Notes under the pieces: model-generated
Databases searched by the model: none
What the model saw: the letters and a program-made list of their open reading frames with translations, nothing else
Told to the model about the DNA's origin: nothing
DNA from: Desulfocapsa sp.
GTDB taxonomy: Bacteria; Desulfobacterota; Desulfobulbia; Desulfobulbales; Desulfocapsaceae
Reading direction: 5' to 3'
DNA: 64,000 nucleotides
NCBI GenBank assembly: GCA_022712895.1
Contig: JAFLJS010000062.1
Location: 1-64,000, forward strand
Shown: in pieces, positions 3,568 through 15,939 of the stretch
How positions within the stretch are numbered: the stretch's first letter is position 1
Layout of the letters: the number at the start of each line of letters is the position of its first letter
Program-made: the position numbers and the translations under genes

Positions 3568-3620
3568 CCACACTACTGTAGTATTTATGTGGTACGGTGT
3601 CGCATTCCGCACCACATGTG
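3568..3620. promoter_or_regulatory. Cluster of CCACA/TGTGG half-sites before the sensor kinase gene
   Basis: CCACAC at 3568-3573 faces ATGTGG at 3587-3592, and a CACATGTG palindrome lies at 3613-3620. The same half-sites form palindromes before three other promoters in the next 16 kb, so this may be an operator of the NtrC-type activator encoded at 6812. Here it lies downstream of the candidate promoter, which would suit autorepression better than activation. Confidence 0.4.
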
Positions 3621-3653
3621 TTGCTTAAACTTTTCGACAGGTCGAATAACACT

Positions 3654-5657
3654 ATGGATTCATCAAGAAGAAACGAGATCCTTTTAGCCATTAATGAGCT
3701 AGCCGCATCCGACGGAGGGGAGCTTACTGAAAAGGGCACGCTCCTTGAAAAATGCTGCAATGTTCTTATGCATAACAAAGAGTATTGTCTTATCTGGGCT
3801 GGAGTACGCGACGATGACAACCTTGGTATAACGCCTCTTGTTGCCTTAACATCTGCCAATATTCCTGATCGTGACTGTATGAACCTTGTCGAACAGGTTG
3901 TAACGGAGATGCATAAAGAGAATCCCGCTGCAAAAGCCCTTCTTACTGGACAACACGTTATCTGCCAGGACATTCGCAATGAAAAAGACACTCAGGCCTT
4001 ACGTGAGATATCCTTAAAGACCGGTTTTCTTTCCTGCTCCGCATGGCCACTGCTCTACAAGGGAAAAGAATTTGGTGTACTCTCCATTCATTCTGAAAAG
4101 AAGGACTGCTTTATTGAGCAGGAAATATCTTTTCTACAGACAGTAATAGCTGATATTTCCCTCGCTCTCTACTCTCAGGACATCACTTTGTCCATGCAGA
4201 TTGAGCGTGATTTTAACCGGGAGATTGTGGATACCATGCAAGCTCTACTGATATCTGTCTCTCCCTGCGGACGCATTCTATCTTTCAATCAAACCGCCGA
4301 AGAAGTTACAGGATACAAAGAACGCGATGTTATTGACCGCTACTGGGTTGATGTACTCATGGCACCGGATCACAGAAAAGCTGACCAGCAACGGGTAAGC
4401 AACGTGCTTAAGGGTGAGCAGAATCAAATGAATTTTGAATCGTGCCTGCTCACAAAAGACAATACGGAAAAAAGTATAAACTGGCACGCTTCATTTCGAC
4501 AAAACATCGAACAGGGTAAGGTGGGTATGGTTCTGTTTGGCATCGATATCTCTGAAAAAATCCGTGCCAAGAAGGAACTGAAACAGGCGGTTGCCCAGTG
4601 GGAGAATATCTTTTCAGCAATCCAAGATCCGGCATTGATAGTCTCAATTGACTCCAAAATACTTGATGCCAACTCCGCAACCTTTACCGCCGCACGGAAA
4701 ACCCGCTCTGAGGTCATCGGTCAACAGTTATGTGATGTTCTGCACCTTGGCCGCTTGAAAGAATCATCATGCCCCCTTGAAGACCTGGTTAAAAGCCGAC
4801 ACAGTAGAATCCTTGAGACAGAACTCCTTGGTCTACATGGCAATTATCTATTAACAGTCAGCCCATTAAACCTACAGAACAGTACCATGGAGGCAGCTCT
4901 CCTCGTGGCAAGGGATCTCACCGAGGAAGAGTTGACCAAAGCTGAAGCCATGCGCGCAGCCCAACTGGCCTCCATTGGTGAGCTGGCAGCCGGTGTTGCC
5001 CATGAAATTAACAATCCGATTAATGGCATCATTAATTATGCCCAGATTATCCTTGATGACCCCAAAGATCCAGAAAATCTGGATCTCTTAAAACGTATAA
5101 TAAAAGAAGGAAAACGTGTAGCCTCCATCGTTTCCAATCTTCTTGATTTTTCGAGACGTCGTGAAGACTCTGCTGAAGTTGTTTCTATCCACAAGATTGT
5201 TAACAACTGCCTGGAACTCATCCAGCACCGTTTCAAAAACGATATGATAACGATTATCCAGAACCTCCCTGACGACCTCCCTCTCGTCTACTGCAATGCT
5301 CAGCAGATACAACAGGTACTGCTCAACATCCTGTCAAATGGTCGGTATGCTTTAAATGAACGGTATACAACCCATGACCCCAATAAAATTTTCACAATCG
5401 CAGGGGCACCTATACAGCGTGACAAAAAAGAATACGTACGCCTCACCCTGACCGACAATGGAACGGGCATAGCTCACGATACAATTGACCGAGTTTTTGA
5501 TCCATTCTACTCCACAAAACCGAAAGGAGAAGGTACCGGGCTTGGTTTAAGTATCAGCCATGGCCTTATGCAGGATAACAAAGGACTGCTCCGCATTCAA
5601 ACCGAACCCGGAGAATCAACTTCACTCATTGTAGACCTACCGATCTCTAACGAATAA
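3654..5657 (+). CDS. Sensor histidine kinase (GAF-PAS-PAS-HisKA-HATPase)
   Basis: A cytoplasmic hybrid-free kinase of 667 residues. A GAF-like domain covers about 20-175, two PAS domains about 185-305 and 310-430, then HisKA with the phospho-acceptor H450 in VAHEINNP, and a complete ATPase lobe: DNGTGI, a DPFYSTKP segment and the GTGLGLSISHG G2 box. No membrane segments are seen, so the signal is probably internal (redox, ligand or small molecule). I chose ATG 3654; an in-frame GTG at 3597 would put coding sequence over the CCACA/TGTGG half-sites. The stop is followed after 10 bp by the PAS protein, and the activator follows that, so the three form an operon and a likely two-component pathway. 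Confidence 0.88.
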   Translation: MDSSRRNEILLAINELAASDGGELTEKGTLLEKCCNVLMHNKEYCLIWAGVRDDDNLGITPLVALTSANIPDRDCMNLVEQVVTEMHKENPAAKALLTGQHVICQDIRNEKDTQALREISLKTGFLSCSAWPLLYKGKEFGVLSIHSEKKDCFIEQEISFLQTVIADISLALYSQDITLSMQIERDFNREIVDTMQALLISVSPCGRILSFNQTAEEVTGYKERDVIDRYWVDVLMAPDHRKADQQRVSNVLKGEQNQMNFESCLLTKDNTEKSINWHASFRQNIEQGKVGMVLFGIDISEKIRAKKELKQAVAQWENIFSAIQDPALIVSIDSKILDANSATFTAARKTRSEVIGQQLCDVLHLGRLKESSCPLEDLVKSRHSRILETELLGLHGNYLLTVSPLNLQNSTMEAALLVARDLTEEELTKAEAMRAAQLASIGELAAGVAHEINNPINGIINYAQIILDDPKDPENLDLLKRIIKEGKRVASIVSNLLDFSRRREDSAEVVSIHKIVNNCLELIQHRFKNDMITIIQNLPDDLPLVYCNAQQIQQVLLNILSNGRYALNERYTTHDPNKIFTIAGAPIQRDKKEYVRLTLTDNGTGIAHDTIDRVFDPFYSTKPKGEGTGLGLSISHGLMQDNKGLLRIQTEPGESTSLIVDLPISNE

Positions 5658-5667
5658 GGAGAAGTTT

Positions 5668-6783
5668 ATGGCACATTCAACTCGATCTCTGATCATTCTC
5701 TCCACAGGATTTCTTATGGCTGTGCTTGTGGTCTTTTACATGAACCTGCAGATTGCAGCATCTGACGATTCTTTTCTGCTCTACAATCTCTCATCCCTCG
5801 CCTGTCTGATAACTGTGTTTGGGCTCTTTCTTTTTCTGTTTGCAAAAGATTGCGACACGGCACAGAAAAAACAGGTACGACTCCGTGACAAAATTGACAC
5901 CATCACCAACTCCCTTAATGATGCGCAATCAAGTCTTGACGATGCCGTTGAGAAAAAAACTTTTGAGATGTCGGTGATCAATGGCTCTCTGAACAGAGAG
6001 ATCGCCGAACGAATCCAGGCAGAGACAGAAGGAACTAAACTGCGAAAACGCCTCCATGCAATTCTTGATTCTGCTGGTGATGGCATCTTTGGCATTGACG
6101 GCAATGGCATGGTGACATTTGTTAATCATAAAGCAACAGAACTTCTGGGCTGGACAAAAGAAGAGCTTATCGGCAAATCCCACCATGATCTCGTACATCA
6201 CACCCGCAAATCAGGTGGTACATTTCCTGTTGAAGAATGTCCAATATATAAAGCTTACAAAGATGGGCATATCCACAGTGAAAGCGATGATGTTTTCTGG
6301 GCTAAAGATGGAAGAAGTTTTCCCGTTGAATACACCTCAACCCCAATGCTCAATGGCGGCAATACCAACGGAGCCGTTGTGGTGTTCAAAGATATTTCCA
6401 AAGCAAAAAAACTGCAAAAACAACAGGAACTCATTCTGAACTCAGCAGGAGAAGGTATTTTCGGTCTCGACGTGGAAGGCAAAGTAACGTTTATGAACAA
6501 AGCTGCCTCTATCATGCTCGGTTGGGATCAGAATGAACTGATAGGTCGATCTCATCACGAACTTGTCCACCATAGCCATTCCAATGGCAGTAAGTATCAG
6601 GAAAGTGACTGCCCCATTTATATGGCCTGCTCAGACGGTCAGGTGCACTTCAATTCAGATGACGTTTTCTGGACAAAAGACGGAAGTAACTTCAATGTGG
6701 AGTATAGCTCAACTCCAATAATAGAAGGACAGAGAATTACCGGAGCTGTTGTCATGTTCAGGGATTTGACAACTTTTTCATGA
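5668..6783 (+). CDS. Membrane-anchored tandem-PAS protein without kinase domain
   Basis: Residues 8-28 and 36-54 are two membrane segments. A long coiled coil follows (about 60-120), then two PAS domains (about 125-245 and 250-370), which are clearly copies of each other: each has a GIFG core, a LGW segment and a SHHDLVHH/SHHELVHH segment. There is no HisKA, ATPase, GGDEF or methyl-acceptor domain, so the protein has sensors but no output of its own. The start has an AAGGAG ribosome site. Its position between kinase and activator genes suggests it feeds a membrane or redox signal to the cognate kinase by heteromer formation. That role is inference. Confidence 0.8.
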   Translation: MAHSTRSLIILSTGFLMAVLVVFYMNLQIAASDDSFLLYNLSSLACLITVFGLFLFLFAKDCDTAQKKQVRLRDKIDTITNSLNDAQSSLDDAVEKKTFEMSVINGSLNREIAERIQAETEGTKLRKRLHAILDSAGDGIFGIDGNGMVTFVNHKATELLGWTKEELIGKSHHDLVHHTRKSGGTFPVEECPIYKAYKDGHIHSESDDVFWAKDGRSFPVEYTSTPMLNGGNTNGAVVVFKDISKAKKLQKQQELILNSAGEGIFGLDVEGKVTFMNKAASIMLGWDQNELIGRSHHELVHHSHSNGSKYQESDCPIYMACSDGQVHFNSDDVFWTKDGSNFNVEYSSTPIIEGQRITGAVVMFRDLTTFS

Positions 6784-6811
6784 TCATCCGAATCCATAAG
6801 CAGGAGAAACA

Positions 6812-8620
6812 ATGACAAACCAAACAACTGAGCATATTCCAATTCTTGTGGTTGATGATGAGGAGTCCCTGCGCCATACATTTAAGATTTTCCTCAAGCG
6901 AGAAGGGTATGGCCCCATTGTTCTTGCATCAAATTTTGAAGAAGCGGTTTATGAACTTGCCAACAACTCTTTTGAGTTAATCATCAGCGATATCGTCCTC
7001 GGCGGGAATACTGGCATTGATCTATTAAAGCGTATTCGGGAATTGAATATGGATTGCCCGGTAATTATGGTTACCGGATACCCAAATGTAGAAACTGCTT
7101 CCGACGCGTTACGGTTTGGTGCTTTTGACTATATCCAGAAACCTGTGGAAAAAGAGCAACTCCTCAAAACCAGTCGTCTGGCATTGCAGCAATACAAGCT
7201 CCAGAAAGAAAAGGTGAAGGCGGAAGAAAGCAGAGAACGGTATCGCAGTTATCTAGACACCTTATTTCGCAGTGTATCAGATGCAATCTTAACAATTGAT
7301 GACGACATGAATATCGTCAAAATGAACCAGGCAGCCCGTTCACTGTTTGGTTCCATAAATCCTGATGTTCAGGAAAATGCCAACCTTGCTACAATATGCA
7401 ATGATCAGGGGAGCTGTTTTTTCAAGGAAGAGACTGAGAAAGTGTTACGTTCAGGAATTGAAATCACAGAACATCGCATTGAATTTGAAAGCCTTTCAGG
7501 AAAACAAAAAATCCTCAGCCTCTGCGTATCCCCATTAGATGATGGTAGAGGTGGTACCCACGGTGTTGTTATCGTTATTCGTGATATGACAGTGTGTGTC
7601 CCCAAGCAGGAAGGCAACCGGCGCTCCACATTTCATCGCATGATTGGTTCAAGCAAAGTTATGCAAAATGTTTACACAATGATTGAGAATGTGGGCAGGG
7701 TCGACTCTGCTGTGTTGATAACAGGTGAAAGCGGTACGGGAAAAGAACTGGCCACGGAAGCGCTGCATCTTGAAAGTCACAGAAGACATCGGCCTCTCGT
7801 CAAAGTTGACTGCACAGCCATCCCGGAAAACCTCCTGGAAAGTGAACTCTTTGGTCATAAAAAAGGTTCCTTTACCGGTGCCGATGAAGATCGTATGGGC
7901 CGTATTCTTCAGGCTGATGGAGGAACACTGTTTTTGGACGAGATCGGCGATATATCCTCCATGATGCAACTGAGGCTATTGCGTTTCCTACAGGAAAAAA
8001 CTTTTTACCCTGTGGGACGTGACACTGCTATTCAAGTGGATGTCCGTGTAATTGCAGCAACAAACGTAAACCTACGTGAACAGGTGCAATGCGGTAAATT
8101 TCGCGAAGATCTCTATTTTCGTCTGCGGGTGATTGATATTATTCTTCCACCCTTGCGCGAACGAAATGGTGATACCATGCTTCTTGCAAATCATTTCCTC
8201 AATCATTATGCCAGCCTAATGGGAAAACCGATTAACGGCATATCAGAACAAGCCAGAGAGTTACTCGCCGCATATCACTGGCCTGGAAACATCCGTGAAC
8301 TTGAACATGTTATTGAACGTGCAGCTGTTCTCTGTAATGATTCCACTATTTCAAAAGAGCTGCTGCCAGCAGAGATTCTCTATCCTCAGGACTATAAACC
8401 CATGACTCCCCAGGTTCAGGAGACGCACATTCCAGATAACGAGCCACAATTTACTCCACAATTCTTTCAACCCGACAGTCTCAAAGACGCTATTATCGCT
8501 GCCCTCAAAAAGAGCGGTGGTAACAAGGCTAAGGCTGCACGTCTGCTCAACATAGATCGCTCCACTCTCTATCGTAAATTAAAAGAACTACAGATCGACC
8601 TCAATTCCCTCGATATCTAA
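6812..8620 (+). CDS. Sigma-54-dependent NtrC-family response regulator (REC-PAS-AAA-Fis)
   Basis: A 602-residue activator. The receiver domain has DD at 15-16 and phospho-acceptor D60. A PAS domain (about 145-260) is inserted between it and the AAA+ module. The AAA+ module shows Walker A GESGTGKE (about 305-312), the sigma-54 contact loop GSFTGA (about 352-357), an intact Walker B FLDEIGD and the arginine-finger region FREDLYFRL. A Fis-type helix-turn-helix ends the protein (KAARLLNIDRSTLYRKL). It activates RNA polymerase-sigma-54 from upstream sites. Sites with GG-N10-GC spacing and TGTGG/CCACA palindromes lie before the next operon and before both downstream cassettes, so those are its probable targets. 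Confidence 0.92.
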   Translation: MTNQTTEHIPILVVDDEESLRHTFKIFLKREGYGPIVLASNFEEAVYELANNSFELIISDIVLGGNTGIDLLKRIRELNMDCPVIMVTGYPNVETASDALRFGAFDYIQKPVEKEQLLKTSRLALQQYKLQKEKVKAEESRERYRSYLDTLFRSVSDAILTIDDDMNIVKMNQAARSLFGSINPDVQENANLATICNDQGSCFFKEETEKVLRSGIEITEHRIEFESLSGKQKILSLCVSPLDDGRGGTHGVVIVIRDMTVCVPKQEGNRRSTFHRMIGSSKVMQNVYTMIENVGRVDSAVLITGESGTGKELATEALHLESHRRHRPLVKVDCTAIPENLLESELFGHKKGSFTGADEDRMGRILQADGGTLFLDEIGDISSMMQLRLLRFLQEKTFYPVGRDTAIQVDVRVIAATNVNLREQVQCGKFREDLYFRLRVIDIILPPLRERNGDTMLLANHFLNHYASLMGKPINGISEQARELLAAYHWPGNIRELEHVIERAAVLCNDSTISKELLPAEILYPQDYKPMTPQVQETHIPDNEPQFTPQFFQPDSLKDAIIAALKKSGGNKAKAARLLNIDRSTLYRKLKELQIDLNSLDI

Positions 8621-8635
8621 TCCCACTCCTCTCCA

Positions 8636-8667
8636 TGCCACACTTCTGTCTGATCAGAAGTGTGGCA
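8636..8667. promoter_or_regulatory. Perfect 13-bp inverted repeat, probable activator binding site
   Basis: TGCCACACTTCTG at 8636-8648 is exactly repeated in inverse at 8655-8667 with a 6-bp centre. It contains the CCACA/TGTGG half-sites seen before the two downstream cassettes, and a further CCACAC lies at 8673. It ends about 130 bp before the candidate promoter at 8794, a usual distance for sigma-54 enhancers. No T-run follows, so it is not a good terminator, although it lies just behind the activator gene. Confidence 0.6.
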
Positions 8668-8793
8668 CAATACCACACTTTCGCTGTACATCATCTTCCA
8701 TCCCCAGTCACTGTTCCGTATCCGCCACGCACAAAATCTCATAACATACTGTTATCTATATACTTAAGAAAATGATTAATAGCTTTTCAAGAT

Positions 8794-8809
8794 AGGCACC
8801 ATATGTGCA
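8794..8809 (+). promoter_or_regulatory. Candidate sigma-54 promoter of the redox operon
   Basis: AGGCACCATATGTGCA has GG and GC exactly ten bases apart and matches the -24/-12 consensus except for the first base and one T. It lies 49 bp before the start of the zinc-ribbon gene at 8858. Confidence 0.55.
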
Positions 8810-8857
8810 ATATCTCAAATTAAAGTGGATAAGTAGTTCAACACTGAAGGAGAACAG

Positions 8858-9742
8858 ATGCAGCGGTTCCCAACAACAACGGATGAATTCAAAGAATTGT
8901 TTCCTAATGAGGAAAGCAGTCTGCAATTCCTCTTTGGTAAACGCTGGCCCCAGGGTTTTGAATGTTCTTATTGCAACTGGCTGAACACTGAACAACTCCC
9001 TGTAAAAACCATAATTTGCGGTCACTGCGGACACCCCACTTCAGTCACATCAAACACCATCATGCATGGCACAAAAAAACCTTTGTCTGAATGGCTTCTC
9101 TGTATCTGGTGGTTCGCTGTAAGTGAGGAAGGGCACAGTGCCAAAGATCTGCAACGCCTGCTCAAACTTTCCAGTTATCAGACAGCTTGGACCTGGCTGC
9201 AAAAGCTACGAATGGCCATGGCTTTTTCTGACAACAGACAGTGCAGAGATACGGTTGAGCTAGCGACTGCAAGCATTTCTTTGGGGGGTGAGGCAAAGAA
9301 TAATGCCAATATTCTTGCTGCTGCTGAAATCATCATGCCGGCAGGGATTACCGGAAGAATTAAAATGCGGACAATTCCCGAAATAAGCCCAGAACTCATT
9401 CAGGAATTTATAAACATTCAAATCCTACAGGGCTCTTCACTGATCCTCCCAGAGCTCGAAGCTTTCAGGTCTGTCTCCAGGAAAAACTTTATCACCATGA
9501 ACAGTGCCATTGTTGATCGCAGCCAGCAAATCATCAAAAGTTTTGAGATATGGCTCAACAAAATTCATCGAGGTGGAGTCGTTGCTAAACATCTGCAACT
9601 CTACCTGGACGAGTTTTGTTTTCGCAGCAACGCTGCCATGCTTCCCGATGCAGAAGCAGTTTTTGAGCTGCTGCTCAAAGGGGTAATTCGCAACAAATCA
9701 ATGTCTTACAAAAGATTAACCTCAAAGAAGAGTGAGGAGTAA
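8858..9742 (+). CDS. Domesticated IS1595-type transposase-derived zinc-ribbon protein
   Basis: The first 125 residues match the N-terminus of IS1595/ISXO2-like transposases: a zinc ribbon with C36, C39, C54 and C57, the TSVTSNTIMHGTKKPL segment, the WLLCIWWF helix and a helix-turn-helix ending WTWLQKLRMAM. The C-terminal HLQLYLDEFCFR signature of the family is also kept. The catalytic DDE part has been lost: the VEVDE motif reads VELAT (133-137), the second acidic position reads ILPEL, and no family-type third acidic motif is seen. The protein should therefore bind DNA but not transpose. It has a strong ribosome site (AAGGAG), starts an operon just ahead of ftsH (3 bp between stop and start) and has no flanking inverted repeats. 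I infer a recruited regulator. Confidence 0.75.
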   Translation: MQRFPTTTDEFKELFPNEESSLQFLFGKRWPQGFECSYCNWLNTEQLPVKTIICGHCGHPTSVTSNTIMHGTKKPLSEWLLCIWWFAVSEEGHSAKDLQRLLKLSSYQTAWTWLQKLRMAMAFSDNRQCRDTVELATASISLGGEAKNNANILAAAEIIMPAGITGRIKMRTIPEISPELIQEFINIQILQGSSLILPELEAFRSVSRKNFITMNSAIVDRSQQIIKSFEIWLNKIHRGGVVAKHLQLYLDEFCFRSNAAMLPDAEAVFELLLKGVIRNKSMSYKRLTSKKSEE

Positions 9743-9745
9743 ACA

Positions 9746-11563
9746 ATGTCCCAAATTCAAACAGGATTACTCGTACTGCTTCTTACTTTTATAGGCGTGG
9801 TTGGATACAACGTTTATATAAACGAAACCACCCCCATAGAACGTTCATACAGTGAATTTATTGAGCTTGTTGAGCAGAATAAAATCAAATCTATACATCT
9901 GAAAGGCGGAGAAGTTACCGCCGAAGATGTCCTGTCACATTCTTTTAGTACCTACATTCCCGATGTAACTCTTGTTATGCCACTTTTCAAAGAAAAAAAT
10001 ATCGAGATTACAGCTGAATCAGCAACTGAAAACTGGGGCGGTTTTATGCGATCCATGCTGCCTGTTCTTTTAATTCTTGGTGGCTATCTGATCTTTAGCA
10101 GAAATCAACAGGGACCAAAAGCTGATTTTGGCAAAGGTAAGGGCAAATCATTTCATCCAAAAAAGAAAATTGATATCAGCTTTGATGATGTGGCTGGCAT
10201 CAGTGAGGCACGTCTGGAACTTTCTGAAGTTGTCGACTCATTAACCAATCCTGAAAAATTTTCTGTCCTTGGTGGATACATCCCCAAAGGTATTCTTCTC
10301 CAAGGCCCTCCGGGAACAGGAAAAACATTATTGGCTAAAGCTATTGCTGGCGAAGCATCCGTTCCTTTTTATTCAATAGGCGGCTCAGACTTTGTTGAAA
10401 TGTTTGTTGGTGTTGGGGCATCCAGAGTTCGTGAACTCTTCACAGAAGCCAAGAAGAATGCACCCTGTATCATTTTTATCGATGAGATTGATGCAATTGG
10501 CGGCAAACGAAGTGGTGGCAATGCCAGCGGCTCAAACGACGAACGGGAACAAACACTAAATGCGCTCCTTGTTGAAATGGACGGTTTTGATTCCGACGAA
10601 ACAGTGATCATTATTGCAGCCACAAACAGACCGGACATCCTTGACCCTGCATTGTTACGACCCGGCAGATTTGATCGCCAAGTGACCATTGCCCTGCCAG
10701 ATGTCAAAGGACGCAGAAAGATACTCGAAGTACATGCACGAAAAATCGTCCTTTCCCATTGCACAGATCTGTCGGTAATTGCCAGAGCCATCCCCGGATT
10801 CAGTGGTGCTGAAATCGCAAATCTAGTCAATGAAGCGGCACTTATGGCAGCACGTAAAAACAAAACAGCCGTAGACAGCAGTGACTTTGAAGATGCCAAA
10901 GACAAGATCAGTCTTGGTCTTGAACGAAAGAATCTTGTGATCAAAGAGAAAGACAGAAGAATAACCGCTTACCATGAAGCGGGACACGCCATTACAGCAA
11001 AACTTCTGCCTGAGACAGATCCGGTTCATAAAATCACCATCATCCCACGTGGACAGGCACTGGGCCTTACTCAGCAAGTGCCTCTTGATGACAGGTACAC
11101 CTATTCACGCGATTATCTCATCAACCGCATAAAAATACTTATGGGTGGCCGTGTTGCTGAAGAGATCGTTTTTGACCATCAGACAACTGGTGCAAGTAAC
11201 GACATCTTGTCAGCAACTGATATCGCCTCTCGTTTCGTCTGTGAATTTGGCATGAGTGAGGCCATTGGCCCCATAGCATACTCACAGGAACAGGAAGGGT
11301 TTTTAGGCAGTACCTCAGCGTCAAAAGCATACAGCGAAAAAACTGCTGAGCATATTGATCAGGAAATAAAAAACCTTATTGAACGATGTTACAGCGAGAC
11401 CTTCGACCTGCTCACAGTCAATAATAAGTTCCTGCACAAACTAGCAGAAGCATTACTGGTCAACGAGACTGTGGACGGTGAAGAATTTGAAATCGTCCAT
11501 CAATGCTACCTAAACGACAAAAAAACAGAAGAAAATATACGAAATAAGCAAAAGGAGGGATGA
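9746..11563 (+). CDS. ftsH: ATP-dependent zinc metalloprotease FtsH
   Basis: Membrane-anchored AAA+ protease of 605 residues. Two membrane segments (5-23 and about 100-118) enclose a short periplasmic part. The AAA+ domain has Walker A GPPGTGKT (187-194), Walker [10 protein letters not shown], the second region of homology ending [10 protein letters not shown], and the pore motif FVEMFVGVG. The M41 protease domain has HEAGH at 410-414 and a downstream acidic ligand region ([11 protein letters not shown]). It is normal in length and has all catalytic residues. FtsH usually degrades misassembled membrane proteins. Here it sits in an operon with a transposase-derived protein and a quinone/cytochrome module, so it is likely a specialised paralogue devoted to that complex or stress; whether a housekeeping ftsH exists elsewhere cannot be seen. 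Confidence 0.93.
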
Positions 11564-11621
11564 ACCAAAAAACATTACTAATTTATCAGGATAAACGAAG
11601 TTTTTTTACAAGGAGGAAATA

Positions 11622-12155
11622 ATGCAAACGCGAAAAAAAATCATGCGAACGGCACTGGCCTTGACTACAGGCGCAATACTGTTTGCACCCGGACACCTTT
11701 TTGCGATGGATGCGTCGGATGCCCCGGAAACTGTGACCATCGACTCGCTGGCCAAATATTATACGCCTGTTGAATTCGATCACCTTATGCATGTGGGATA
11801 TGCAAGCTGCGAAGAGTGCCATCATCATACAACTGGCGTTCAGGTTGCAGATCCGAACTGTCTCAGATGTCATGCAAATACACCGGAAGCAGATGAGGTG
11901 AGTTGTGTAGGATGCCACGCTGCTGATCGCTTTAACGATACATATCTGTCCACACTGGATGACCCCCGAATATACCACATCGATAAACCAGGCTTAAAGG
12001 GAGCATATCACCTGAACTGCATCGGTTGCCATGTGATCATCGAAGGCCCGACTGGTTGTCAGGACTGCCACGCAATGACAGAGGCTGGGGAGAAGCTCTT
12101 CAATACTGGAAAACATGCTCCGGCAGGTGGAACTTCATCTGGTGCTAAACATTGA
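11622..12155 (+). CDS. Periplasmic pentahaem class III-type cytochrome c
   Basis: A 177-residue protein with a signal peptide (1-28, ending LFA). Five CxxCH haem-attachment motifs are visible at 63-67, 80-84, 95-99, 133-137 and 146-150. Extra histidines before the first motif (H54, H57) and H130 can serve as distal ligands, as in cytochrome c3/c7 relatives. It is an electron carrier in the periplasm, probably the acceptor or donor for the ferredoxin-NrfD pair that follows. A strong AAGGAGG ribosome site precedes the ATG. The cytochrome-ferredoxin-NrfD order recalls Hmc-like complexes of sulfate reducers and the CbcSTU module of Geobacter; which one it is closest to cannot be settled by eye. 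Confidence 0.88.
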   Translation: MQTRKKIMRTALALTTGAILFAPGHLFAMDASDAPETVTIDSLAKYYTPVEFDHLMHVGYASCEECHHHTTGVQVADPNCLRCHANTPEADEVSCVGCHAADRFNDTYLSTLDDPRIYHIDKPGLKGAYHLNCIGCHVIIEGPTGCQDCHAMTEAGEKLFNTGKHAPAGGTSSGAKH

Positions 12156-12188
12156 CCAGGATTCGGTAACCAGTCTAAGGAGGACATT

Positions 12189-13151
12189 ATGAAAAAACTC
12201 AATCGAAGAAGTTTTATTAAAGGTGGCCTGGCAACAACTGCCGCGGTCACGGTCTTAAAAGAAAAGAAAAGTGCGGCCTCAGGTGATTTTGACAACTACC
12301 CCGAAGGAATGGGCGTCATTGTCGATCTTACCCGTTGTGTAGGCTGTCGGTCTTGTGAGGCAGCATGTAATAAAGAACAAAACCTGCCAGAACCAGAAGT
12401 ACCATTTGATGATTTTTCAGTATTTGACTACATGCACCACGGTGAGAAACGACGTACCGACGAAACAGCCTATACAATCGTCAATCGTTACAATCCACCA
12501 GAAATTGATCATCCACTTTTTAGAAAAGTCCAGTGTAACCATTGCAATGAGCCAGCATGTCTCACATCTTGCTTTGTTAACGCCTACACCAAGACCCCAG
12601 AAGGGGCTGTTATCTATAACGCCAAGGTTTGTGTTGGTTGTAGAACCTGTATGGTTGCATGTCCATTCTATATCCCAGCATTTAAGTATTCCAGTGCGTT
12701 TAAGCCCCAGATTATGAAATGTATCTTCTGTTATGACACTCGTCTCAAAAACGGAGAGCCACCAGCATGTGTTGAAGCATGTCCGCAGGAAGCATTAACC
12801 TTTGGCAGGCGCAAAGACGTTCTGAAAATTGGTAAACAACGCATCCGGGAGACCCCTGGAAAATATGTCGATCATATTTACGGCGAACATGAAGTAGGTG
12901 GTACCGCCTGGATGTATCTCTCAAGCGTACCGTTTGACAAAGTTGGTTTTGATACGCACGTACCCAAAGAGCCTATCATTAATTCTGTAAAAGAGTTCCT
13001 GGCGATGGTTCCCATGGTTCTAACCATCTGGCCCGGTCTCTTTGTAGGGTTCCATTTACTGGCCACACGAAAAGATAAAGTAAGAGAAATGGAAAAAGAA
13101 GCAGAATTGAAAAAAACGAAAGAAAATGATGAGAAGGAGGAGCAGGCATGA
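12189..13151 (+). CDS. Membrane-anchored 4x[4Fe-4S] ferredoxin subunit (HmcB/HybA/CbcT-like)
   Basis: A Tat-type signal (RRSFIKGG, 6-13) is followed by four cysteine clusters: CVGCRSCEAAC, CNHCNEPAC, CVGCRTCMVACP and CIFC with CVEACP. This is the four-cluster ferredoxin of NrfC/HybA/DsrO families. One membrane segment near the C-terminus (about 275-295) separates it from soluble NrfC types and fits HmcB and HybA. The tail is strongly charged (Lys/Glu). It passes electrons between the haem protein and the NrfD-type quinone subunit. The ATG has an AAGGAGG site, and the stop overlaps the NrfD start by 4 bp, which indicates translational coupling. Confidence 0.88.
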   Translation: MKKLNRRSFIKGGLATTAAVTVLKEKKSAASGDFDNYPEGMGVIVDLTRCVGCRSCEAACNKEQNLPEPEVPFDDFSVFDYMHHGEKRRTDETAYTIVNRYNPPEIDHPLFRKVQCNHCNEPACLTSCFVNAYTKTPEGAVIYNAKVCVGCRTCMVACPFYIPAFKYSSAFKPQIMKCIFCYDTRLKNGEPPACVEACPQEALTFGRRKDVLKIGKQRIRETPGKYVDHIYGEHEVGGTAWMYLSSVPFDKVGFDTHVPKEPIINSVKEFLAMVPMVLTIWPGLFVGFHLLATRKDKVREMEKEAELKKTKENDEKEEQA

Positions 13152-14401
13152 AACTCTTTTCCAATGAAAGACCTGAAATTCCAATCGCCCATCACACAAA
13201 AGAAGATGGCTCAGCCTGGACCATTAAAGAAAAATTATGGCTTGGACTCTCCGTCACTGAATATAAAAAACAATTTTTCAGAAACCCGGTAAACTGGTTT
13301 ATGATAATGCTCTTTGCCATTGGCATCCCGCTGATTCTTGGCCGCTATGCCTTTGGTTTGGGATGGGTTACCCACGCTTCAAACGATTATCCCTGGGGTC
13401 TATTCTTAGGATTTGGACTCTTTGGTATGGTTCCTCTGTCAGCGTCAGGATTTATGCTTGGCACCACGGTTGAACTCTTTGGTAGAAAAGATTTCCATTC
13501 CATTGAACGGCTTGCACTGCTCAATGGACTCCTTGGATATTTCTTTGCTGTAGTGTTTCTTGAGATCGATCTCGGTATGCCATGGCGCCTGCCCTACCCT
13601 ATGTTTGTTTCCTTAGGACCTGCTGCGGTATTATTTCTTGTGGCCTGGCATGTCGCTACCTATCTCTCCGTACAAATAGCTGAAGTACTGCCCGCCTTTT
13701 TCGAATGGATTGGCTGGCTCAAAGGAAAACGTATCATACGCAGATATGTCCTTGGCCTCACAGTTGCCGGTATTATCCTGTCAACGCTGCATCAAGGTGC
13801 TCTCGGTGCCTTATTCACCTATGCACCGGCAAAAATTCACCCACTCTGGATCTCATCCAACTTTACATGGATACATTTCTTCGTCTCATCCATTTTTGGA
13901 GGACTTTCCATGGTAATTATCGCATCAACCCTGATCAAAAACTTCATGGGCTGGCGTTGTGATGATGAGTTCAAAGACAACCTGGACTACGTAACCATAG
14001 GAATGGCCAAAGGTGCTTCTCTTGCCATGATTACCTATCTGGTTATCAAACTTGTAGCCGTTGCCCATGACCAGGAATGGACTTACCTGCTCACGGGATG
14101 GGGAAGTTATTACATGCTTGAACTGGGCGTTGCAGTTGTACTGCCTATGTTTATGTTTGCCTTTGGTGTCAGAAATAACTGGGTAACACTTATCAGAGTC
14201 GGTGCCTTTATTGCTGCCATTGGAATCATCTGGAATCGACTCAACACAGCTCTTGTCTGCTTCAACTGGCAGATGTACCAAGAGATTCCACACTGGAAAG
14301 AAGTATGGATTACAGTAACAATCTACGCTCTCTACTTCTTAACCTACCGTTTCATAGTCTATCGTCTTCCCATCGTTTATGAATGGAAAGGCGAGAAGTA
14401 A
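13148..14401 (+). CDS. NrfD/PsrC-family integral membrane quinone-interacting subunit
   Basis: A 417-residue polytopic protein with about ten hydrophobic segments and the layout of the NrfD/PsrC (HmcC, CbcU, HybB) family. It probably exchanges electrons between menaquinone and the ferredoxin subunit encoded just upstream, with possible proton movement. The ATG overlaps the TGA of the ferredoxin gene (ATGA). The first 50 residues are cytoplasmic and hydrophilic. Together with the cytochrome and ferredoxin it forms a complete three-subunit quinone:cytochrome module. No catalytic molybdenum or hydrogenase subunit is present, so it is more likely a quinone-to-cytochrome link than a terminal reductase. 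Confidence 0.88.
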   Translation: MKLFSNERPEIPIAHHTKEDGSAWTIKEKLWLGLSVTEYKKQFFRNPVNWFMIMLFAIGIPLILGRYAFGLGWVTHASNDYPWGLFLGFGLFGMVPLSASGFMLGTTVELFGRKDFHSIERLALLNGLLGYFFAVVFLEIDLGMPWRLPYPMFVSLGPAAVLFLVAWHVATYLSVQIAEVLPAFFEWIGWLKGKRIIRRYVLGLTVAGIILSTLHQGALGALFTYAPAKIHPLWISSNFTWIHFFVSSIFGGLSMVIIASTLIKNFMGWRCDDEFKDNLDYVTIGMAKGASLAMITYLVIKLVAVAHDQEWTYLLTGWGSYYMLELGVAVVLPMFMFAFGVRNNWVTLIRVGAFIAAIGIIWNRLNTALVCFNWQMYQEIPHWKEVWITVTIYALYFLTYRFIVYRLPIVYEWKGEK

Positions 14402-14428
14402 AGCCTGAACCTGAACACTCATTCTACC

Positions 14429-14456
14429 CCAGAGTCTCTTGCAAAAGAGACTCTGG
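14429..14456 (+). other. Intercistronic stem-loop
   Basis: CCAGAGTCTCTT at 14429-14440 pairs perfectly with AAGAGACTCTGG at 14445-14456 around a 4-nt loop. No T-run follows, so it is more likely an mRNA stabiliser or partial attenuator between the NrfD gene and the pseudo-kinase gene than a full terminator. Confidence 0.6.
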
Positions 14457-14493
14457 AATATGTTTCAATAGCAGAGGAAAAGGGAGACTACAG

Positions 14494-15939
14494 ATGAAAA
14501 AATTTTTCTCACAAATTTCACTAAAAAGAATATTTTCTCTCTTCACCTTTAGCACCATCGCCCTGCTGCTGGTGGTGATATTTTTCGCAGGAAAGCAATA
14601 TCTACTCTATCACCAGTGCGACTCCCTGGTAAGATCCAGTCAGCATATACTTTTTCAATTCACTGGAATAAAAGAACATATTAACGAGACGTTCCTCTCT
14701 GACAAGGCTCTGGACAGCTCAAAACTTATAATAGAAATCCAAGGTCTTGACGATGAGCTTACACATATTTTACAAGATGTCCTTATCCCAGAAGAATTCA
14801 AATTAAACTTTATCAGCCAGGTTGATCTGGTTCACCTGACGGTTACTCTTCGCAGCATACAAAATAGCAGCAGCGGAACAGACACAAATCAAAAAGCTAA
14901 ACTCACCAGACAACTCCGTACAATACATGCAAAGCTCACTGCGTTTAATCAACTCATCACACGCTATACGCAAAAACAACTATTAGGATTACACAGAGCC
15001 TTAGTTGGGCTACTCACCTTCATCATAGCCGCGATCAGTATTATGCTGCTGGTTATTAACCAGTATATTACATCTCCCATTCTTCACTATTGCAAAGCAT
15101 TATTTCCGAAAGAAAAAGATACCATATCCCTTTTTACACTCCATAAGAGTATTGAAAACATGGCCGCACAGCCATCAGAGCGAGATGTGCAACCAAATCA
15201 GCGCAATGTAAAGGAAATGTCACGTCTCTATCGCAACTCAAGTATAGGCAATCTACTTGGAGGCATCAGTAACGAACTGACAAATCGTTCAAACGGAATT
15301 ATCAACTACACCCAAGCTATCCTTGATCTGAGTCACGATCTACAGGTGGATCATGATTCTAAAGTATTGTTGCAGAAGTTATTTATCGAAGAAAGAAAAA
15401 TGTCAGAACTCCTGACGCATATGATCCAGTTTACCAGTAGCAGTGAAGATGGTGCAGCCAAAAGCCTTTCCCTTGAAGATATGTTTGCTCCTATAACTGG
15501 ACTTGTACAGGGGACACTGAAAAATGACAGGATCACCTTACATCTCACTCTTGATAATCCGTCACGTATATTGAATTATCATGTCAGTGACTTGCAACTT
15601 GTCATATTATCTGCTCTGCAAAGCAGTAGAGTCGCACTCAACCGTTCTGACACCCTCCAACGACAACACGAAGCCAAAGAGATAACTATTTCTTTAACAG
15701 ATGAACTGCTTACTGAAAATAGGGTGATTATTGCAATCGAAGATAATGGTGCCCCCTGGAAAACAAATCCTGACGACACCGTGCCCGTAACAGAACGCCC
15801 CTGGCACAACATGCGATTCTGCAATGACTTCCTCCATACTTTTGGCGGGAGTCTCCAGGTTAATAGAAAAAACGGGGTGACGAATCAATGCCTCATTGAC
15901 ATTCCATTTCGTGAAAAACGGGTAAATGAAAAATGCTGA
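14494..15939 (+). CDS. Membrane pseudo-histidine kinase
   Basis: Two membrane segments (about 12-34 and 170-190) flank a helical periplasmic domain of about 135 residues. The cytoplasmic part aligns with HisKA-HATPase kinases, notably the one encoded at 3654: GVAHEINNPINGIINYAQ there reads GISNELTNRSNGIINYTQ here. The phospho-acceptor His is thus Asn260. The ATPase lobe has lost the N-box asparagine, keeps only DNG of the G1 box and lacks the GTGLG box. It should neither autophosphorylate nor bind ATP normally. An AGGAAAAGGGAG ribosome site supports ATG 14494 over an in-frame start at 14383 that would run through the stem-loop. A role as a partner or antagonist of the upstream kinase is inferred. 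Confidence 0.8.
   Translation: MKKFFSQISLKRIFSLFTFSTIALLLVVIFFAGKQYLLYHQCDSLVRSSQHILFQFTGIKEHINETFLSDKALDSSKLIIEIQGLDDELTHILQDVLIPEEFKLNFISQVDLVHLTVTLRSIQNSSSGTDTNQKAKLTRQLRTIHAKLTAFNQLITRYTQKQLLGLHRALVGLLTFIIAAISIMLLVINQYITSPILHYCKALFPKEKDTISLFTLHKSIENMAAQPSERDVQPNQRNVKEMSRLYRNSSIGNLLGGISNELTNRSNGIINYTQAILDLSHDLQVDHDSKVLLQKLFIEERKMSELLTHMIQFTSSSEDGAAKSLSLEDMFAPITGLVQGTLKNDRITLHLTLDNPSRILNYHVSDLQLVILSALQSSRVALNRSDTLQRQHEAKEITISLTDELLTENRVIIAIEDNGAPWKTNPDDTVPVTERPWHNMRFCNDFLHTFGGSLQVNRKNGVTNQCLIDIPFREKRVNEKC

Follow-up and report, generated by a model that had tools for sequence, protein, structure and literature searches.

We examined a 64,000-nt stretch of the genome of Desulfocapsa sp. (assembly GCA_022712895.1, contig JAFLJS010000062.1, positions 1 to 64,000; hereafter the window) in which a gene related to the transposases of IS1595/ISXO2-type insertion sequences (IS) stands immediately before a gene for an FtsH protease. 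This gene, hereafter TNP (8858–9742, plus strand), encodes a protein of 294 aa that we describe as a domesticated transposase from profile matches, alignment and predicted fold. It is preceded by a sigma54-type promoter and by a short element resembling the terminal inverted repeats (TIRs) of related ISs. The protein consists of a zinc ribbon (C36, C39, C54 and C57), a helix-turn-helix (HTH) region at residues ~76–124 and a predicted RNase H fold at ~130–260; the YLDEFCFR end known from these transposases is found at residues 249–256. Profile searches place TNP in the IS1595 family: it matches the Pfam model Zn_ribbon_IS1595 at 25.8 bits (cut-off 25.4) and the NCBIfam model transpos_IS1595 at 78.8 (cut-off 75), and its match to the Pfam model DDE_Tnp_IS1595 (25.1 bits) is just below the cut-off of 27. 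Two relatives with intact motifs reach 109.9 and 104.5 bits with the latter model (L101 and L104). The gene has its own Shine-Dalgarno sequence (AAGGAG, 8847–8852, plus strand), is the first one after the promoter and is separated from ftsH by 3 bp. Inverted repeats paired like those of an IS were not found around it, the upstream element being the sole TIR-like site. In all these respects the window agrees with an earlier note on the same DNA, which had reported the retained zinc ribbon, HTH and YLDEFCFR end, the ribosome site, the leading place in an operon, the short distance to ftsH and the lack of flanking repeats. The multiple copies and multiple locations of a mobile IS1595 element were not seen for TNP: its context is fixed, and its own genome yielded a single match in a BLAST-type search, with a second, weaker one counted by a profile search.

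The catalytic positions were compared in an alignment of 54 orthologues from the same gene cluster (34 of a near group and 20 of a distant group, defined below) and 38 non-syntenic relatives, 31 of them outside Paenibacillus. As the earlier note had observed, the VEVDE motif of the family reads VELAT in TNP (residues 133–137), and the three catalytic columns are occupied by A136, P198 and Q223. The first Asp was present in 30 of the 31 relatives outside Paenibacillus, in none of the 34 near orthologues and in 12 of the 20 distant ones. The second column is Asp in 29/31 of these relatives and 0/54 orthologues, and the third is H or N in 28/31 and 2/54, respectively; based on the alignment, we presume that H/N represents the third catalytic residue. 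We looked for any orthologue with an intact catalytic set and found that none of the 54 carries D/D/(H or N), even when a slip of one column was allowed at the second and third positions. The four cysteines of the zinc ribbon are invariant in all 54 orthologues. Among the 56 invariant columns of a 19-row near alignment, 37 fall in residues 16–130, four in 131–219 and 15 in 220–294.

The earlier note had further pointed to retention of the DNA-binding part of the protein. The zinc ribbon and HTH are indeed kept, but the fold of the RNase H catalytic domain is also predicted to persist without its residues, given the structural matches to the AlphaFold2 model of TNP (mean predicted local distance difference test score of 91.5). 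The top Foldseek matches in the PDB are chains of the ISCth4 transposase (E 2.8e-05; TM-score by query of 0.35–0.38). Residues 130–260 were aligned by VIA-align to the core of a retroviral integrase with Z 13.9 and a root-mean-square deviation of 2.2 over 122 residues.

We then considered the distribution of TNP across 257 genomes of the order, at least 108 of which have some IS1595-type match. Orthologues were defined by their fetched genomic context with one locus per genome, so that the resulting number of 57 genomes is a lower bound. Their identities to TNP range from 25 to 88%, with 36 genomes at 41% or above (the near group) and 21 at 25–36% (the distant group); the closest named orthologue, at 88%, comes from a metagenome-assembled genome of Desulfocapsa. 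The earlier note had proposed conserved synteny with ftsH as a check, and this synteny holds: ftsH directly follows TNP in 54 of the 57 genomes, is absent in two and would lie past the contig end in one (G038). A gene for an NtrC-type regulator was found upstream in 45 of the 57, and the upstream stretch does not exceed 1.6 kb in nine. Downstream, we identified the cytochrome gene in 30 genomes, hmcB in 30 and hmcC in 29; the remaining stretches end earlier, except in G058, where none of the three was found over 7.5 kb. All 18 named loci with at least 43% identity (L031–L048, from records of Desulfocapsa, Desulfobulbus and Desulfobulbaceae, plus some labeled Proteobacteria or Pseudomonadota) present the order TNP, FtsH, cytochrome and HmcB as far as their contigs reach. 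No FtsH or Hmc matches were found in the 28 other loci compared with them, whose identities are at most 29% except for one fragment.

Outside the order, none of the 17 matches examined among those listed for 395 sampled genomes of the phylum (L138–L153 and L156) lies in the cluster. Using a motif search, the first and second Asp were both found in 14 of the 17, and one each in L152 and L153, a partial and a split gene. In the last of the 17, the IS1595-like L145 (from G440), the search found neither motif. A stretch of 100 bases (L155) was too short to be of use. The best 20 of 160 records of plasmid homologues were at most 32% identical to TNP. One orthologue of the same family within the cluster (L154/L135, from G117) shows an odd stretch near residues 60–90 of the alignment, and the HmcC frame of this genome shows one TGA.

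The ratio of nonsynonymous to synonymous substitution rates (omega) had been suggested in the earlier note as a measure of constraint. Pairwise estimates with the Nei-Gojobori method (NG86), all from pairs of the near group, gave omega values of 0.05–0.24 in 13 of 14 pairs, which indicates purifying selection; the fourteenth pair gave no dS. Seven pairs with dS of 0.18–0.77 (omega 0.09–0.24) weigh most, since dS exceeds 1 in the other six. The 40 orthologues included in a tree of 70 rows all group on a single branch with support of 100/100. The rows nearest to this clade are eight ISXO2-like sequences, and the branch joining them (88/75) rests on midpoint rooting. From these sequences, it is near certain that TNP has been domesticated. 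The alignments indicate that the catalytic residues were lost long ago and that the gene has since been kept in front of the ftsH and electron-transfer genes of a group of sulfur bacteria.

Upstream of TNP lies a conserved block made of the promoter and the TIR-like element. The sigma54-type -24/-12 promoter, AGGCACCATATGTGC, lies at 8794–8808 on the plus strand, and its GG and GC keep a constant spacing to the element in 35 of 35 near loci. The element, ACTTATCCACTTTAATT, is a presumed operator at 8818–8834 on the minus strand, recognized by its fixed spacing and by the TIR matrix described below. If C8808 is taken as position -12, transcription would start at ~8820 and this 17-mer would span about -2 to +15. 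The sequence AAGTGGATA or a close variant occurs exactly 19 nt after the promoter (from GC to GATA) in all 35 near loci, and identity outside the block drops to ~40% on both sides. In the thirty-sixth near genome (G030), the gene is split over contigs and both promoter and element are present. Because the spacing to the promoter is fixed and the start codon lies anywhere from 31 to 77 nt from the element (with start codons chosen by script), the element appears tied to the promoter and not to the ribosome site. In the distant group, a GATAGG variant was detected at 18 nt in 10 of 20 loci.

No wider regulon was evident in this genome: the exact 12-mer AAGTGGATAAGT occurs once, and sites with one mismatch number 22 versus 34 in a backward control. 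Across the 257 genomes, a 37-base pattern of promoter plus element gave 76 matches in 64 genomes, and 32 of these matches lie upstream of TNP by coordinates; the backward control gave seven. Three loci (L033, L022 and L041) carry an extra plus-strand copy resembling TTATCCACA upstream of TNP, which forms an inverted pair with the element and is not fixed across loci. Inspection by eye had hinted at another TIR-like site, on the plus strand and upstream of the promoter; its best positions proved to be scattered, and it was discounted.

The likeness of the element to IS ends was assessed with a matrix built from the inverted repeats located around the genes of relatives. This TIR matrix includes 14 IS loci with ends resembling GGGTATCCACTTTACTC, three of which have genes that are not intact (L106, L112 and L143). 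Within 200 nt, it identified the minus-strand element as the best site in 33 of 35 near loci; in all of 12 promoters from clusters without TNP, scores did not exceed 2.3. The sites of Desulfobulbus elongatus DSM 2908 and D. rhabdoformis DSM 8777 are among those with high scores. The top scores, 18.4 (L115) and 18.0 (L048), are the best in their whole loci and were reached by none of 1,500 random sequences, or by one of 1,500 when L112 was left out. Most of the loci nearest to the window score 7.9 (P 0.01–0.02), with 4.6 for L041 (P 0.10) and -0.9 for L034; in L042 another site outscores the element. With a matrix restricted to the five sister ISs fitting the pattern, the element was best in 29 of 35 near loci.

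Gene and element were also compared for joint presence. Where a sigma54-like site exists, the element was detected in 35 of 45 loci bearing TNP versus 0 of 18 lacking it, a count that leaves aside loci without such a site (L086 and L046 among them), includes one locus twice (L045/L113) and takes in some TNP-less loci whose true promoter may be other than the sigma54-like site. In some other clusters of the order, the slot between regulator and FtsH contains two small, probably membrane proteins (~70–84 and 102–106 aa, by eye) in L158, L160, L162, L165 and L171, and no convincing gene in L164, L169, L170, L173 and L175.

The genes around TNP, from 3597 to 15939, all lie on the plus strand. Upstream are a histidine kinase with GAF and PAS domains (HK1; 3597–5657, identified by profile and as a neighbor in relatives), a PAS-domain protein (5668–6783, likewise a neighbor in relatives) and an NtrC-type response regulator that would activate sigma54 promoters (6812–8620; Response_reg, Sigma54_activat and HTH_8 domains). 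A palindrome, GCCACACTTCTGTCTGATCAGAAGTGTGGC, at 8637–8666 is the presumed site of this regulator, and similar palindromes were seen by eye upstream in several relatives. Downstream, the FtsH protease (9746–11563) was identified by profile and by the HEAGH and GPPGTGKT motifs in its translation; the genome holds three FtsH-type genes, and the other two are 50–52% identical to that of the operon. It is followed by a multihaem class III cytochrome c resembling the C-terminal part of HmcA (11622–12155, by profile; 177 aa matching only positions 419–539 of the 541-position model), an HmcB-like iron-sulfur protein with a twin-arginine translocation (Tat) signal (12189–13151; 399.8 bits, equivalog cut-off 420) and an HmcC-like membrane protein (13148–14401; 357.2 bits, cut-off 550). 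With the HmcB-like and HmcC-like proteins below their equivalog cut-offs, the segment 11622–14401 represents a reduced Hmc-like module. Finally, a kinase-like protein of uncertain start (HK2; 14383–15939) has no Pfam match at 0.01; it lies downstream of TNP in most near relatives and not in the distant ones fetched, and weak matches also occur in TNP-less clusters. Further upstream of the kinase gene, open reading frames named by eye as PstS-like (phosphate-binding) and PstB-like occupy 548–2572.

Taken together, these observations suggest that the domesticated TNP probably binds a TIR-like operator and thereby represses the sigma54 operon that it heads. The earlier note had proposed a role as regulator, and this role draws support from an IS-end-like element at fixed spacing after the promoter that is absent where the gene is absent; we infer both the binding of the element by TNP and the sign of regulation from sequence. 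The upstream kinase and NtrC-type regulator would activate the promoter through the palindrome at 8637–8666. TNP, as first product of the operon, would then bind the element over the transcription start and hold the promoter down, so that the operon of TNP, ftsH, cytochrome, hmcB and hmcC would limit itself. Judging from adjacency, TNP or other proteins may be targets of degradation by the co-transcribed FtsH. More broadly, a DDE transposase may have become a dedicated transcription factor whose operator is a former or re-selected TIR at a fixed helical place over a sigma54 start; the Desulfocapsa/Desulfobulbus lineages would have retained or lost protein and operator as a pair. We propose this wider scenario tentatively, with slightly less than even confidence.

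Several alternatives were weighed against self-repression. A decaying IS standing before ftsH by chance could account for the loss of catalytic residues and of paired ends. It would however be a poor fit to the omega values, and the single clade, the open frames and the constant position in 57 genomes, with identities as low as 25%, led us to rule it out, leaving it next to no credence. A domesticated TNP might also serve elsewhere, in chromosome structure or as a partner or substrate of FtsH, with the element bound by another protein or acting in the transcript leader. A DnaA-like protein would be one candidate, since the minus strand contains TTATCCAC, which is near the DnaA box TTATNCACA; the absence of the element from half of the distant orthologues would also suit this scenario. 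However, the box ends in T instead of A in 34 of 35 near loci, its first T varies, the genome contains a single exact copy of the 12-mer, and loci lacking TNP also lack the element. The start-codon distance, moreover, varies while the promoter distance is constant. We consider this scenario unlikely. It appears improbable that TNP acts instead as an activator or co-activator of the promoter, for instance by bending DNA between enhancer and polymerase. Transposases can bend their ends and the sign of regulation is not fixed by the sequence, but the site spans the presumed start, and proteins bound at such a position usually prevent open complex formation or escape; TNP-less clusters also keep a sigma54-like promoter.

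It is very improbable that TNP, even if only in certain distant orthologues, is still active as an enzyme and serves to cut DNA at the operon in a programmed manner. The retained RNase H fold and the first-position Asp of 12 distant rows, six of which also have Asp one column past the second position, are in favor of this reading. Against it stand the loss of the first Asp in all near rows, the lack of Asp at the second column in all 54 orthologues and the lack of H or N within one column of the third position in all 20 distant rows. Catalysis is, from the alignment, surely lost in the near group and likely lost in the distant group, because distant rows have Asp at the first or the shifted second position and none has all three residues. 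Some of our observations weigh against a catalytically dead repressor acting through an IS-derived operator. The column after the second position is Asp in 19 of 54 orthologues, in which the alignment may have slipped by one column, and six distant rows pair this shifted Asp with the first-position Asp. FtsH is not next door in G058 and G126, and three genomes with TNP, promoter and element (G138, G144 and G147; loci L084, L096 and L089 for G138, G144 and G147, respectively) have no NtrC-type gene within ~7 kb upstream, so that the activator would be encoded elsewhere. The element as defined is absent from ten of 20 distant orthologues and also from L154, and just two of 20 distant loci have it selected by the TIR matrix. 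The window itself shows a modest match, which scores 7.9 bits and is seventh among the positions of the 64 kb, both strands included. The IS-end set was moreover not blind, since its loci were chosen for fitting the pattern after the likeness to the element had been noticed. With the sister IS L109 added, in a register of our choosing, the element came first in 16 of 35 near loci and among the top four in 33; the end of the sister L117 is of another kind, and a search for ends found none around L103. The element is also oriented like the right end of an IS, and simple retention of a left end therefore does not explain it. Finally, the HmcC tree provides only about three independent contrasts, of which typically two agree, none disagrees and one shows no difference, and no significance can therefore be claimed for the association of gene and element.

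A regulator derived in this way would be assigned to an uncharacterized FtsH/Hmc-like redox operon of sulfur bacteria, in which the NCBIfam model labels the gene as a plain transposase. The reuse of transposase end recognition as an operator is a question directly testable here, because the protein, its presumed operator, mobile relatives with their ends and gene-less sister clusters can all be compared. To our knowledge, exapted DDE transposases acting as transcription factors are known mainly from eukaryotes, and no title among the matches listed in our literature search dealt with transcription factors of bacteria that are IS1595 or other DDE transposases. The accessible text of a review on the recruitment of mobile genetic elements in prokaryotes mentions transposase-derived Cas1 and names no DDE-derived regulator (PMC8987985); background on the IS1595 family is given in the accessible part of PMC8101967.

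A set of IS1595-like sequences from Paenibacillus (L050, L051, L053, L054, L055, L057, L058, L073 and L075) possibly represents an independent domestication, given that the catalytic set is missing and the zinc ribbon preserved in all seven of its rows that were aligned. L050 and L051 are 95% identical, and identities of L050 to the other loci of the set are 34–48%. The pairs L050/L051 and L055/L075 share flanking genes, and no synteny was seen across the set.

Among known systems, IS1595/ISXO2-type ISs share with TNP the zinc ribbon, HTH, RNase H fold and YLDEFCFR end, provide the nearest rows of the tree and have ends that resemble the promoter element. In contrast to them, TNP has no catalytic set, no paired ends and a fixed place in an operon. 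The operon resembles the Hmc complex of sulfate respiration in its HmcB-like and HmcC-like subunits and in a cytochrome similar to the end of HmcA; it differs in the scores of the first two and in the partial coverage of the HmcA model noted above. TnpA-REP belongs to the Y1 HUH class of transposases. Like TNP, it is a domesticated bacterial transposase linked, according to the accessible part of its description, to short repeated palindromes (PMC8266576), but it is of another transposase class and is tied to the dissemination of repetitive extragenic palindromic (REP) sequences. A further parallel is offered by TldR proteins, which the accessible part of PMC13418256 describes as nuclease-dead derivatives of TnpB that act as RNA-guided repressors. 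As in TNP, a protein of a mobile element has lost catalysis, kept DNA targeting and become linked to host genes. TldR however descends from an RNA-guided lineage of RuvC nucleases, whereas TNP derives from a DDE transposase that has no known guide RNA and presumably recognizes an IS-end-like site directly.
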